Origin: Actinoallomurus soli | GTDB lineage: Bacteria > Actinomycetota > Actinomycetes > Streptosporangiales > Streptosporangiaceae | Assembly (NCBI RefSeq): GCF_024055715.1 | Contig: NZ_JAMXMV010000005.1 | Span: forward strand, 124,001-188,000 | DNA length: 64,000 bases | Reading direction: 5' to 3' | Shown: piece by piece, positions 33,317 to 36,548 of the stretch | Numbering within the stretch: the stretch's first letter is position 1 | How the letters are laid out: each line of letters starts with the position of its first letter | Notes under the pieces: generated by a model | Databases searched by the model: none | Told to the model about the DNA's origin: nothing | What the model saw: the letters and a program-made list of their open reading frames with translations, nothing else | Translations under genes and position numbers: made by a program

Positions 33317-33332
33317 GGATGTGGGCGGACGG

Positions 33333-34178
33333 TCAGAAGATCCCCTTGGGCGGGGGAGGCGACGGGCGGGCGGTCGCGTCGGTGACCGGGGCGGCCCCGG
33401 CCGTGAACCGCGCCAGCTCATCCCCGTCCAGGACCCGGCCGGGGAAGGGGTCCCCGGCGGCCCTGCGGGTGAGCTCCGCCACGGGCGGAGGTGTCCGCCC
33501 GGCGATGAGGATCAGATTGCCGAACCGGCGGCCGCGCAGCACGGCGGGATCGGCGATGAGGCACACCTCCGGGAGGACGGCCCGCAGCGTCGCGACCTGC
33601 GCCCGGGCGAAGGACAGCGGTGCGCCGTCGGCGACGTTCGCGGCGTACCACCCGTCCGCGCGCAGCGCCCGGGCCACGGCGCCGGCGAACTCCACGGTCG
33701 TCAGGTGCGCGGGCGACCGGGTTCCCGCGTACGCGTCACCGACCACCAGGTCGAAGGAGTCCTCGTGGGCCCGCGTCAGGACCTCACGGGCGTCGCCGTG
33801 CCGGATCCGGATCCGATGGCCCTTCTCCAGCGGGAGTTCGCGCCGGACGAACTCGATGAGCGCCGCGTCGACCTCGACCACCTGCTGGGTCGAGCGCGGC
33901 CGGGTCGCGGCGACGTAGCGCGGCAGGGTGAGGGCGCCGCCGCCCAGGTGCAGCACCCGCAGCGGACGCCGCTCCGGAGCCGCCAGGTCGACGACGTGGC
34001 CGAGCCGCCGCACGTACTCGAAGTCGAGGTAGGCCGGGTCGTCGAGGTCCACGTGGGACTGCGGCGCGCCGTCCAGCATGAGGACGTGGGCCCGGGGGCG
34101 GTAGGGATCGGGGACCAGCTGCGCGATGCCGGAGTCGACCTTCGCCTCCACGGTTCGAGCGCTCTGCCGGTGTGCCAC
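33333..34178 (-). CDS. spermidine-synthase-like methyltransferase-fold protein
   Basis: A 281-residue protein with the Rossmann fold of spermidine synthases and class I methyltransferases. Motif I is VLHLGGGALTLPRY near residue 75, the acidic ribose site VVEVDAALIEF follows, then GDAREVL, and FDLVVGDAYAG in place of the DxxD/PxGP catalytic motif. Many actinomycete proteins annotated as spermidine synthase look like this and probably do not make polyamines. It is convergent with pobA and divergent from the conserved unknown gene at 34248. Substrate unknown. Confidence 0.8.
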   Translation of the reverse strand: MAHRQSARTVEAKVDSGIAQLVPDPYRPRAHVLMLDGAPQSHVDLDDPAYLDFEYVRRLGHVVDLAAPERRPLRVLHLGGGALTLPRYVAATRPRSTQQVVEVDAALIEFVRRELPLEKGHRIRIRHGDAREVLTRAHEDSFDLVVGDAYAGTRSPAHLTTVEFAGAVARALRADGWYAANVADGAPLSFARAQVATLRAVLPEVCLIADPAVLRGRRFGNLILIAGRTPPPVAELTRRAAGDPFPGRVLDGDELARFTAGAAPVTDATARPSPPPPKGIF

Positions 34179-34247
34179 CGGCCCACATTAATGGACCTGC
34201 GCGCCGAACGAAGATCGCGATACCGTGCGTGCTGCCAGAAAGGGGGC

Positions 34248-34982
34248 ATGGTGGCGAAACTGAACCAGATCATCGCCGTCGAGAAGGGGATCAAGAGCGG
34301 GACGCTCCGCGACCTGACCGACGCTCATCACGGGCTGCAGAAGCAGGCTCTGCTGTCCGGCATCTCGCGTACCTACCAGCCGAAGGACGAGGAGGGCGAG
34401 CAGCTTCCGCCCGAGTCGACCCGGGTGCAGGTGAAGGCCGATGAGGTTCTGCGCCGGACGGCCGAGATCATGACGCGGCTGTTCGACGTGACCGCCACCA
34501 AGGACTGGGCGAACTGCGAGGCCAGGGCGGACGTCACGGTCGACGGCCAGACGCTGCTGCGGGACGTCCCCGTCACGTACCTGCTCTTCCTGGAGAAGCA
34601 GCTCACCGACCTGCACACCTTCGTCAAGAAGCTTCCGGCGCTGGACGCCGCCGAGACCTGGGCGTTCGACGACTCCGCGGACGCCTGGCGGACCGAGCCG
34701 GTACGCACGATCCGTACGAAGAAGGTCCCGCGTAACCACGTCAAGGCGGAGGCGACGGACAAGCACCCGGCGCAGGTGGAGGTCTACTACGAGGACGTCG
34801 CCGTCGGCTACTGGACCACGGTGAAGTTCTCCGGCGCGCTGCCCGCCCGGCGGATCAACGAGCTGCTGGAGCGGGTGGAGAAACTGCAGCAGGCCGTGAA
34901 GTTCGCCCGGGAGGAGGCGAACGGGACCGAGGTCACCGACCGGCGGGTCGGAGACGTGGTCTTCCGCTACCTCTTCGGGTAA
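34248..34982 (+). CDS. conserved actinobacterial protein of unknown function, next to permuted tRNA-like RNAs
   Basis: A 244-residue soluble protein that I believe belongs to a conserved family annotated DUF7873; no enzyme motif is visible. It starts MVAKLNQIIAVEKGIKSGT, has a charged central part (RTIRTKKVPRNHVKAEATDK), the tryptophan-rich EDVAVGYWTTVKFSG, a C-terminal coiled-coil-like helix (RINELLERVEKLQQAVKF) and ends VVFRYLFG. AAAGGGGG precedes ATG 34248. The protein is rich in basic residues in the middle, compatible with RNA binding. Two permuted tRNA-like RNAs lie 50-300 bases downstream on the same strand, which raises the idea of a ribonucleoprotein or RNA-processing partner; that link is inference only. 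Confidence 0.7.
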   Translation: MVAKLNQIIAVEKGIKSGTLRDLTDAHHGLQKQALLSGISRTYQPKDEEGEQLPPESTRVQVKADEVLRRTAEIMTRLFDVTATKDWANCEARADVTVDGQTLLRDVPVTYLLFLEKQLTDLHTFVKKLPALDAAETWAFDDSADAWRTEPVRTIRTKKVPRNHVKAEATDKHPAQVEVYYEDVAVGYWTTVKFSGALPARRINELLERVEKLQQAVKFAREEANGTEVTDRRVGDVVFRYLFG

Positions 34983-34992
34983 CGTCTCAGAC

Positions 34993-35013
34993 TCCCTCGC
35001 CTTGCGCGAGGGA
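34993..35013. terminator. 8-bp hairpin after the conserved unknown gene
   Basis: TCCCTCGC and GCGAGGGA pair perfectly around CTTGC, ten bases after the stop codon. It may end the mRNA, or separate it from the tRNA-like RNAs that begin within about 20 bases. No U-tract follows. Confidence 0.5.
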
Positions 35014-35029
35014 AGCGCGAGGAGCGCAA

Positions 35030-35158
35030 GCTGAAACTGAAGTTCAGTCTGATCGCGGTGACAGTGGGGGTTCGAGTCCTCCTCCCGGCACCCGTGCCGG
35101 GATGGCCCAACATGGCAGAGGCGGCCGCTCAAGCTCAGGCTCTCGCTCCAGATTCAGC
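35030..35158 (+). ncRNA. circularly permuted tRNA-like gene 1
   Basis: The halves of a tRNA appear in reversed order. First comes the 3' half: anticodon-stem strand GCGGT (35055-35059), variable GACAGT, T-arm GGGGG-TTCGAGT-CCTCC (35066-35082), acceptor strand TCCCGGC (35083-35089) and discriminator A. After five bases comes the 5' half: acceptor strand GCCGGGA (35096-35102), TG, D-arm GCC-(12-base loop with GG)-GGC (35105-35122), G, and anticodon-stem strand GCCGC (35124-35128). Acceptor pairing is 7 of 7 and anticodon stem 5 of 5 with one G-T. The outer flanks 35030-35043 and 35145-35158 form about 12 further pairs with two mismatches. The anticodon is unclear: either CAA with a shifted stem, or AAG with an abnormal C33. 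No CCA is encoded. Confidence 0.8.
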
Positions 35159-35184
35159 ATTCGCCGCCGAACGCCGGATCAAGT

Positions 35185-35293
35185 GAGAACGGACGGAACT
35201 CGTCGGGGTGCCGGTTCGAGCCCGGCATGCGCCTCTCCGCGGCGCGTTAGCTCAATAGGCAGAGCACGGCGATCTCAGGACTGATCCGTTCTC
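35185..35293 (+). ncRNA. circularly permuted tRNA-like gene 2
   Basis: Same reversed order. The 3' half has anticodon-stem strand CGTCG (35201-35205), variable GGGT, T-arm GCCGG-TTCGAGC-CCGGC (35210-35226), acceptor strand ATGCGCC (35227-35233) and discriminator T. Six bases later the 5' half has acceptor strand GGCGCGT (35241-35247), TA, a textbook D-arm GCTC-AATAGGCA-GAGC (35250-35265), A, and anticodon-stem strand CGGCG (35267-35271). Acceptor pairs 7 of 7 with one G-T; anticodon stem 5 of 5 with one G-T. The loop then reads ATCTCA, giving a possible CTC anticodon. The flanks GAGAACGGA (35185-35193) and TCCGTTCTC (35285-35293) pair perfectly over nine bases, closing the unit at its anticodon end. 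Confidence 0.85.
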
Positions 35294-35330
35294 TTAAACG
35301 CCGCCGGCGTGCGCAAATGGGCGGCAACCC

Positions 35331-35364
35331 GGGGTCCGGGAGATGGACAAAGCTCCCGGACCCC
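35331..35364. terminator. bidirectional terminator hairpin, 12-bp stem
   Basis: GGGGTCCGGGAG and CTCCCGGACCCC pair perfectly around a ten-base loop, between the tRNA-like genes (plus strand) and the end of the thiolase gene (minus strand). It should terminate both transcripts. Confidence 0.8.
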
Positions 35365-35396
35365 ACCGCCGCGCGTCGCCGAATCCCACCGCCGGA

Positions 35397-36548
35397 TCAG
35401 AGACGTTCGATGATGGTGACGTTGGCCTGCCCGCCGCCCTCGCACATGGTCTGCAGGCCGTACCGTCCGCCGGTGCGCTCCAGTTCATGCAGCAGCGTCG
35501 TCATCAGCCGGGCGCCGGTCGCTCCGAGCGGGTGGCCGAGCGCGATCGCGCCGCCGTTGGGGTTGGTCACGGCCGGGTCGGCGCCGGTCTCCTTCAGCCA
35601 GGCCAGCACGACCGGCGCGAACGCCTCGTTGATCTCCACGACGTCGATGTCGCCGATCGTCATCCCGGCCCTCTTCAGGGCGTACGCGGTCGCCGGGATG
35701 GGCGCGGAGAGCATCCGGATCGGGTCCTCGCCGCGTACGGACAGGTGGTGGACGCGGGCGCGCGGGGTCAGGCCGTGGTCGCGTACGGCGCGTTCGGAGG
35801 CGAGGAGCAGGGCCGCGGCGCCGTCGGAGATCTGCGACGCCAGCGCGGCGGTCAGCCGGCCGCCCTCGACGAGCGGTTTCAGCGCGGCCATCTTCTCCAG
35901 GGACGTGTCGCGGCGGGGCCCCTCGTCGGCGGTGACGCCGCCGTACGGGGCGATCTCCCGGTCGAACCGGCCCTCGTCGATGGCGCGGACCGCGCGCCGG
36001 TGGGACTCCAGCGCGAACTCCTCCATCTCCGCCCGGCCGATGCCCCACCGCTCGGCGATCATCTCGGCGCCGCGGAACTGCGAGACCTCCTGGTCGCCGT
36101 AGCGCGCCTCCCAGCCGCGCGAGCCCGCGAACGGACCGGCGAACCCCAGCTGTGCCCCGGCGATCATCGCGTACGCGATCGGGACCTGCGACATGTTCTG
36201 CACGCCGCCCGCGACGACGAGATCGCAGGTGCCGCTGAGCACGGACTGGGCGGCGAAGTGGACGGCCTGCTGCGAGGAGCCGCACTGACGGTCGACGGTG
36301 ACGCCCGGCACCTCCTCCGGCAGTCCCGCCGCCAGCCAGCAGGTACGGGCGATGTCACCGGCCTGCGGCCCCACCGTGTCGACGCACCCGAAGATCACGT
36401 CCTCGACCGCCTCCGGGTCGGCGCCGGACCGCTCGACCAGCGCCGTCAGCACGTGCGCGCCGAGATCCGCCGGGTGAACCCCGGCCAGGCCGCCGTTCCG
36501 CCGGCCGACGGGCGTACGGACCGCCTCGACGATGTAGGCCTCCGCCAT
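35397..36548 (-). CDS. fadA6: acetyl-CoA acetyltransferase, FadA6-like
   Basis: A 383-residue thiolase. The acyl-enzyme cysteine is Cys89 in VDRQCGSSQQA; EINEAFAPVVLAW, NPNGGAIALGHPLGATGAR (split) and CEGGGQAN near the C-terminus provide the His and second Cys. In mycobacteria FadA6 carries out thiolysis at the end of steroid C/D-ring breakdown and lies directly beside kstR2, as here. AGGAGG six bases before ATG 36548 fixes the start. It is ten bases downstream of the TetR gene and probably co-transcribed with it and the SDR gene. Confidence 0.88.
   Translation of the reverse strand: MAEAYIVEAVRTPVGRRNGGLAGVHPADLGAHVLTALVERSGADPEAVEDVIFGCVDTVGPQAGDIARTCWLAAGLPEEVPGVTVDRQCGSSQQAVHFAAQSVLSGTCDLVVAGGVQNMSQVPIAYAMIAGAQLGFAGPFAGSRGWEARYGDQEVSQFRGAEMIAERWGIGRAEMEEFALESHRRAVRAIDEGRFDREIAPYGGVTADEGPRRDTSLEKMAALKPLVEGGRLTAALASQISDGAAALLLASERAVRDHGLTPRARVHHLSVRGEDPIRMLSAPIPATAYALKRAGMTIGDIDVVEINEAFAPVVLAWLKETGADPAVTNPNGGAIALGHPLGATGARLMTTLLHELERTGGRYGLQTMCEGGGQANVTIIERL

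Follow-up and report, generated by a model that had tools for sequence, protein, structure and literature searches.

The question raised by this locus is whether two tandem units that carry the parts of a tRNA in an unusual order are tRNA genes or something else. They lie on the forward strand of a contig of Actinoallomurus soli, in a window of 64,000 nucleotides (the whole stretch of DNA analysed). An earlier note, made from the letters alone, had described positions 35030–35293 as two tandem permuted tRNA genes, with a YrlA-type (bacterial Y RNA) mimic as the alternative. What lies here is a structured RNA that carries two tRNA look-alikes turned inside out, rather than working tRNA genes. 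Structured RNA does occupy the interval first described, but the true span is wider, about 34994–35364. The RNA adjoins a gene for a DUF7873 protein, a link that was not seen in the first reading.

The DUF7873 domain was detected by a Pfam scan with 399.6 bits at residues 312–552 of a long open reading frame (33321–34982), and the start codon, ATG 34248, was picked by alignment with homologues. The outer neighbours in this 9.4 Mb genome, which encode a 4-hydroxybenzoate 3-monooxygenase, a PcaC-type decarboxylase, a thiolase and a TetR regulator, look unrelated to the module. The features are listed below, where R1 denotes a covariance model built from 71 units, all of them linked to DUF7873.

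34248–34982, +: DUF7873 gene (PF25283), 244 aa, immediately upstream of the RNA
34994–35012, +: 5′ hairpin CCCTCG/CGAGGG, separating gene and RNA, read from the sequence
35021–35026, +: 5′ strand of helix P1, GGAGCG, partner 35144–35149
35028–35053, +: hexamer-periodic strand of RRNYTN repeats, a possible protein-binding segment
35055–35128, +: tRNA mimic 1, permuted; R1 67.9 bits at 35066–35127; covariation
35055–35059, +: mimic 1 anticodon-like 3′ strand GCGGT, pairs with GCCGC 35124–35128
35066–35082, +: mimic 1 T-arm
35083–35089, +: mimic 1 3′ acceptor TCCCGGC, pairs with 35096–35102
35090–35095, +: mimic 1 acceptor loop ACCCGT, 6 bases
35096–35102, +: mimic 1 5′ acceptor GCCGGGA, 7/7
35105–35122, +: mimic 1 D-arm, 3-bp stem
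35124–35128, +: mimic 1 anticodon-like 5′ strand GCCGC, 5/5 including one G-U
35130–35162, +: strand folding back against the segment 5′ of mimic 1; includes the P1 3′ strand CGCTCC, 35144–35149
35172–35177, +: 5′ strand of the unit 2 outer basal stem, CGCCGG, partner 35304–35309; covarying column pairs 171–173/292–294
35185–35193, +: 5′ strand of the unit 2 9-bp basal helix, GAGAACGGA, partner 35285–35293; covarying column pairs 182–190/273–281
35201–35271, +: tRNA mimic 2, permuted; R1 67.6 bits at 35210–35271; covariation
35201–35205, +: mimic 2 anticodon-like 3′ strand CGTCG, pairs with CGGCG 35267–35271
35210–35226, +: mimic 2 T-arm
35227–35233, +: mimic 2 3′ acceptor ATGCGCC, pairs with 35241–35247
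35234–35240, +: mimic 2 acceptor loop TCTCCGC, 7 bases
35241–35247, +: mimic 2 5′ acceptor GGCGCGT, 7/7 including one G-U
35250–35265, +: mimic 2 D-arm, 4-bp stem
35267–35271, +: mimic 2 anticodon-like 5′ strand CGGCG, 5/5
35285–35309, +: 3′ strands of the unit 2 basal helices, TCCGTTCTC (35285–35293) and CCGGCG (35304–35309)
35294–35300, +: recurring TTAAACG, internal loop of the unit 2 basal helices
35331–35364, +: GC-rich terminator-like hairpin GGGGTCCGGGAG/CTCCCGGACCCC, without a T-run

A base-by-base check bore out the permuted order of both units, the T-arm and 3′ acceptor being followed by a loop and then by the 5′ acceptor and D-arm. The stems read in the earlier note also hold, with one G-U pair in the anticodon-like stem of unit 1 and one in the acceptor of unit 2. 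The acceptor loops, given there as 5–6 bases, are of 6 in unit 1, as claimed, and of 7 in unit 2. By eye, a counterpart of the 34994–35012 hairpin is found at the equivalent site in many homologous loci, as is a comparable GC-rich 3′ hairpin; a T-run scan at 35331–35364 gave no site. Mimic 1 is present in the minimum-energy fold, and the folding energies of single sequences are unremarkable.

Standard models of tRNA and tmRNA do not account for the element. ARAGORN returned no tRNA and no tmRNA in the window, the Rfam tRNA model gave 16.3 bits against a cut-off of 29, and nothing in the window passed the curated Rfam cut-offs. The tmRNA model RF00023 had no match in the window at its gathering score; at E 10 it was absent among the matches listed for 34970–35400, a list outside which stood one lower-scoring overlapping clan member. 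The best relaxed match in 34970–35400 was YrlA (“Y RNA-like”, RF02553), which covered unit 2 over the full model (35186–35295) with 30.8 bits and unit 1 with a sub-threshold 19.9 bits. Both units have the permuted module of YrlA (T-arm, acceptor, D-arm) and a flanking basal stem, as the helices of unit 2 covary and the strands of unit 1 co-evolve, but neither reaches the gathering score of 69 bits. The TROVE-linked YrlA arrays of eight relatives, at 31.8–53.8 bits, likewise stay below 69. The cut-off therefore discriminates poorly here, and RF02553 may miss many actinobacterial Y RNAs. The best units of these eight arrays, at 42.5–53.8 bits, score above the DUF7873-linked units of the window. 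The suggestion of a YrlA-type mimic came much nearer than that of tRNA genes, except that the partner is DUF7873 and that no match to Ro60/TROVE (PF05731) was found in the A. soli genome.

DUF7873 is present in 99 of 297 genomes of the source family, in 7 of 396 genomes sampled across the phylum (A. soli included) and in 73 phage records. Homologous loci were taken as the best 80 from viral contigs and the best 80 from bacterial genomes, and the 700 nt past the DUF7873 stop were searched with a descriptor of the permuted order (score of at least 12, anticodon-like stem excluded). Three of the 160 loci, with under 400 nt of sequence to search, were dropped from this count. At least one unit was found in 146 of the remaining 157, and two in 104. 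Among the 77 viral loci, 38 had two units, 28 one and 11 none, so the twin heads are not found everywhere; the 80 bacterial loci had two (66) or one (14). The same descriptor gave 2/157 upstream (viral 2/77, bacterial 0/80), 1/157 on the reverse strand (viral 0/77, bacterial 1/80) and 0/1570 units in dinucleotide shuffles; the permuted order far exceeds what chance would give. The same gene and RNA are found together in actinobacteria and in phages infecting Arthrobacter, Gordonia, Rhodococcus, Klebsiella, Rhizobium, Vibrio and Pseudanabaena.

R1 was applied to a subset of 25 out of these 80 viral loci, picked mostly where the descriptor had given fewer than two units, and 22 had a downstream match of at least 20 bits; L073, L098 and L113 had none at that score. 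Over the 297 family genomes, 142 of the best 150 R1 matches listed have DUF7873 no more than 1.5 kb away, and for the remaining eight TROVE is no more than 3.5 kb away. Conversely, 91 of the 98 DUF7873 matches compared had an R1 match among the best 150 listed, 51 of them two. At weaker scores (E up to 0.01), 294 of the 297 genomes have R1 matches, some of these matches probably lying in tRNA clusters; the A. soli genome has six, four of them outside the window. As R1 was trained on DUF7873-linked units, gives weak matches nearly everywhere and reaches 49.4 bits inside a phage tRNA array (Arthrobacter phage Mimi, L047 186–246), low R1 scores are no evidence by themselves. From these sequence comparisons, the RNA itself and its link to DUF7873 are very probably real.

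The paired elements were then examined in the alignments. Covariation among homologues, which the earlier note had set as a test of its reading, was observed for the permuted stems: 99.4% of the cells in the unit alignment are paired, and the covariation score is 0.777, compared with no more than 0.184 once the partners are slid. These values are favoured by the descriptor, which demands pairing, so that more weight is placed on helices that it does not demand. In a column-pair analysis of 57 nonredundant loci, the 9-bp helix and the outer helix enclosing unit 2 rank besides the arms. The strands enclosing unit 1 form their own duplex with a mean of −35.7 kcal/mol, whereas permuted pairings average −29.5 and the lowest of 2000 permutations is −31.6. 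In 50 of the 57 loci the own duplex is better than the mean obtained with strands swapped in from other loci. The anticodon-like stem pairs 5/5 in 34 of 57 nonredundant loci for unit 1 (permuted mean 9.2, maximum 18) and in 34 of 52 for unit 2 (mean 10.3, maximum 19; 1000 permutations each). Together, the co-evolving basal helices and the anticodon-like stems indicate that each mimic sits on a basal stem, without an anticodon loop. It is on this point that the claim of tandem permuted tRNA genes failed: the stem ends, which in such a gene could be joined to a 7-nt anticodon loop, run on into the basal helices. Support for P1 is moderate: it pairs 6/6 in 29 of 56 nonredundant loci (permuted mean 19.0, maximum 25; 1000 permutations), but among the 25 loci whose 3′ strand departs from the consensus it pairs in 9, against a mean of 6.6, which is not above chance.

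The two heads are of different types. The D-stem has 3 bp in mimic 1 in 56 of 57 loci, and 4 bp in mimic 2 in 52 of 57; a 3-bp D-stem is a feature of class II tRNAs. The RRNYTN rhythm before mimic 1 reaches a score of at least 14/16 in 46 of the 57 loci, but in only 14 of 1140 shuffles. CCA was counted in 105 loci with both units (39 viral, 66 bacterial). The acceptor loop starts with N-CCA in 21/39 viral and 23/66 bacterial copies of unit 1, and in 18/39 and 7/66 of unit 2, respectively; the window loops, ACCCGT and TCTCCGC, are without it. The second loop position is a nearly constant C in viral type 2 units (37/39), listed loop lengths range from 4 to 49 nt, and the 39 viral loci have 26 distinct 3′ acceptors. 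The encoded CCA hints, at the level of sequence, at processing by RNase P or at descent from adjacent tRNA genes.

Twelve phage loci were read individually. Eleven have at least one unit 3′ of DUF7873, and seven have two: Arthrobacter phage Mimi, Gordonia phages Phendrix and Keelan, Rhodococcus phage NiceHouse, Pseudanabaena phage Pam2, and Klebsiella phages KpLz-2_45 and FBKp24. The units of Keelan are about 530 nt past the DUF7873 stop, with a tRNA in between. A single type 2 unit is found in Vibrio phage D491 (only 23.9 bits) and in Rhizobium phages RHph_TM30, TM16 and Y1_11. Microcoleus phage My-WqHQDG lacks a unit in the first 500 nt; the closest match to score more than 20 bits (29.5 bits) is 2.1 kb downstream. 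The DUF7873 gene is annotated “hypothetical protein” in all 12 loci and in every annotated phage record listed. The RNA is unannotated in most of the 12, and small CDS calls overlie it in Keelan (gene 126) and D491 (0061). Part of the RNA region of FBKp24 (L229 5018–5097) is annotated tRNA-Sup-TTA, which is probably a misread permuted fold. Phendrix seems to carry a tmRNA gene, an unannotated RF00023 match of 89 bits (L048 4063–4591) flanked by annotated tRNAs. Natural variants were also noticed by eye downstream of DUF7873. Mimic 1 is gone from L018 and replaced by unlike sequence in L006 and L013, the basal parts and mimic 2 being kept in all three; these variants are useful for telling the roles of the two heads apart.

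The confident AlphaFold model of the DUF7873 protein (pLDDT 92.8, pTM 0.67) predicts long helices and β-strands. Foldseek matched it to no solved structure at E 0.001 or better, and a second structure comparison gave middling scores only. The Pfam scan finds DUF7873 alone, with neither TROVE nor vWA, and the protein has 244 aa against 523 for a TROVE open reading frame from the same family. With pI values of 5.0–7.0 in eight proteins, DUF7873 is not basic, and as it also has no known fold, RNA binding cannot be read from the protein. PADLOC gave nothing better than E 0.027. In a tree of 78 DUF7873 proteins, the 13 bacterial ones are shallow and fall among phage sequences of greater diversity; because the tree is unrooted and weakly resolved, the order of phages first and hosts later can only be inferred.

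The relation to Ro60 was examined through TROVE, which occurs in 129 of the 297 family genomes: in 58 of the 99 with DUF7873 and in 71 of the other 198 (odds ratio 2.5, kinship ignored). The two genes are about 2–8 kb apart in three genomes, and at L055, L224 and L225 a TROVE gene lies within the same stretch as the DUF7873 module, the two systems adjoining. Given this co-occurrence and the three close pairs, the module may act together with Ro60 in some hosts. The TROVE profile, on the other hand, matched 19 of the 20 controls but not one of the 160 DUF7873 loci, which indicates that the systems are mostly separate and adjoin in some genomes; tblastn found no TROVE in the DUF7873 loci either, but is too insensitive to count. 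The TROVE-linked arrays of the eight genomes have one to three permuted units with mostly different basal sequences, for example GCCCGGTGCGCAGG..TTACTTC / CGATCTCGGGC. At three family TROVE loci (L217, L219, L221), the descriptor found YrlA units in tandem threes, with GTGCGCAGG..TACTTC-like flanks. Both systems are also carried by one phage, RHph_TM30, where three R1 units (33–48 bits) stand just upstream of a TROVE gene (L052 11581–12389), about 5 kb from the DUF7873 module.

DUF7873 and the twin-mimic RNA look, from their sequences, like a previously undescribed relative of the bacterial Y RNA system. The module has two parts, the DUF7873 gene and then one predicted noncoding RNA of about 300–370 nt, which, as the comparison shows, bears two permuted heads of different type, each on an anticodon-like stem that runs on into its own basal stem. 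DUF7873 would bind the basal parts, possibly at the hexamer-periodic strands, in the way that Rsr/Ro60 binds YrlA, giving a second Y-type ribonucleoprotein independent of Ro60. Its heads might be recognised by host tRNA-handling proteins (TruB, Dus, RNase P, or a 3′ exonuclease such as PNPase), and either tether DUF7873 to these proteins or occupy them. Phages might steer or protect RNA metabolism during infection by this module, which actinobacteria would have taken over. The logic is copied from that of YrlA, DUF7873 replacing Rsr and two heads replacing one; according to the review PMC8394870, the tRNA-like domain of YrlA tethers the Rsr ring to PNPase, and DusA and TruB modify that domain. 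As a whole, a second Y-RNA-like ribonucleoprotein of DUF7873 and a twin tRNA-mimic RNA is the best explanation and a probable one. By analogy with Rsr, binding of the RNA by DUF7873 is likewise rather likely, whereas any particular task of the heads can be put forward only tentatively. A fuller version is somewhat more doubtful: DUF7873 would hold one RNA that displays two unlike tRNA-like ends a fixed distance apart, both of them opened at the acceptor by RNase P to a CCA end, in a system spread by phages across several phyla, domesticated by actinobacteria, and working beside and independently of Ro60-Y RNA.

Alternative explanations were weighed against this one. The units could be ordinary YrlA Y RNAs for a Ro60 orthologue, with DUF7873 an inconsequential neighbour. 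The permuted head and basal stem are the same, the sub-threshold RF02553 scores are matched by the TROVE-linked arrays that fail the same cut-off, and DUF7873 and TROVE co-occur somewhat. This reading is nevertheless improbable, as the A. soli genome is without a TROVE match, nearly all of the best 150 listed R1 matches adjoin DUF7873, and TROVE-linked units mostly have other basal sequences and sometimes stand alongside a DUF7873 module (L224, L225). Alternatively, the look-alikes, lacking an anticodon, could be decoys that occupy host defence proteins attacking or sensing tRNAs, with DUF7873 as a stabiliser. Carriage by phages, several of them with large tRNA arrays, and acceptors that are free to vary while the fold stays constant would suit such a role, and the same idea is offered for Salmonella YrlA in PMC7790460. 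Bacterial chromosomes carry the module too, however, here amid catabolic genes; no nuclease target is known, and the PADLOC result is no help. As a rival, the decoy is unlikely, although it is compatible with the ribonucleoprotein preferred here, as the task of its heads.

Two further possibilities take the tRNA likeness more literally. The RNA could be akin to a two-piece permuted tmRNA, its loops being opened by RNase P and 3′ trimming, and its CCA ends being aminoacylated or bound by EF-Tu. The N-CCA loop starts, the near-constant C at the second position and loop lengths that fit a discarded spacer speak for this. The acceptor sequences, however, are too variable for a single identity, an unsystematic look noticed no tag reading frame, and the encoded CCA is missing from most bacterial units, including those of the window, and could be a relic of neighbouring tRNA genes; we give this possibility little credence. 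Least probable by far are true permuted tRNA genes that yield working tRNAs via a circular intermediate. They would explain the permuted arrangement of the acceptor, D-, T- and anticodon-like stems, but not an open stem that enters other co-evolving helices in place of an anticodon loop, and the known route, as described in PMC3978253, requires a BHB motif and the tRNA-splicing machinery.

The literature searched contained no description of such a ribonucleoprotein class and did not name DUF7873; the founding YrlA papers fall outside it, so earlier notice is possible. The papers found on phage Y RNAs treat Ro60/TROVE or YrlA generally (PMC7765460, PMC7824862). What appears new, judging by the sequences, is that a Y-RNA-like tRNA mimic has a twin head and a different partner. 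The literature searched ties bacterial Y RNAs to one protein, Ro60/Rsr; if the proposal is true, mimicking a tRNA on top of a Y-type stem is a design used more generally, and DUF7873 would gain a concrete RNA and a testable function. Since some copies lack mimic 1 and some hosts lack TROVE, the role of each head and of each protein can be tested across lineages.

Among known systems, the permuted tRNA genes of algae and archaea share the order of the arms and the short acceptor loop, but differ at the would-be joined ends, where basal helices are found here and no anticodon loop. Permuted two-piece tmRNA also has the 3′ acceptor before the 5′ acceptor, with a spacer between them, and CCA is likewise encoded in many of the phage copies; unlike tmRNA, the present RNA has two tRNA-like domains, a neighbour that is DUF7873 and not SmpB, and no tag reading frame noticed in the unsystematic look. 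The closest system is YrlA (RF02553) with Rsr/Ro60. It differs in its partner, TROVE instead of DUF7873, whereas the RNA described here has two head types whose order is fixed, different basal sequences that show a hexamer periodicity, acceptor loops in which phage copies often carry CCA, and scores far under the Rfam cut-off. In both, a basal stem carries a permuted head made of T-arm, closed acceptor and D-arm, and tandem copies adjoin the partner gene; they also share the layout in which, for YrlA, the basal stem binds the protein and the tRNA-like head is the effector.
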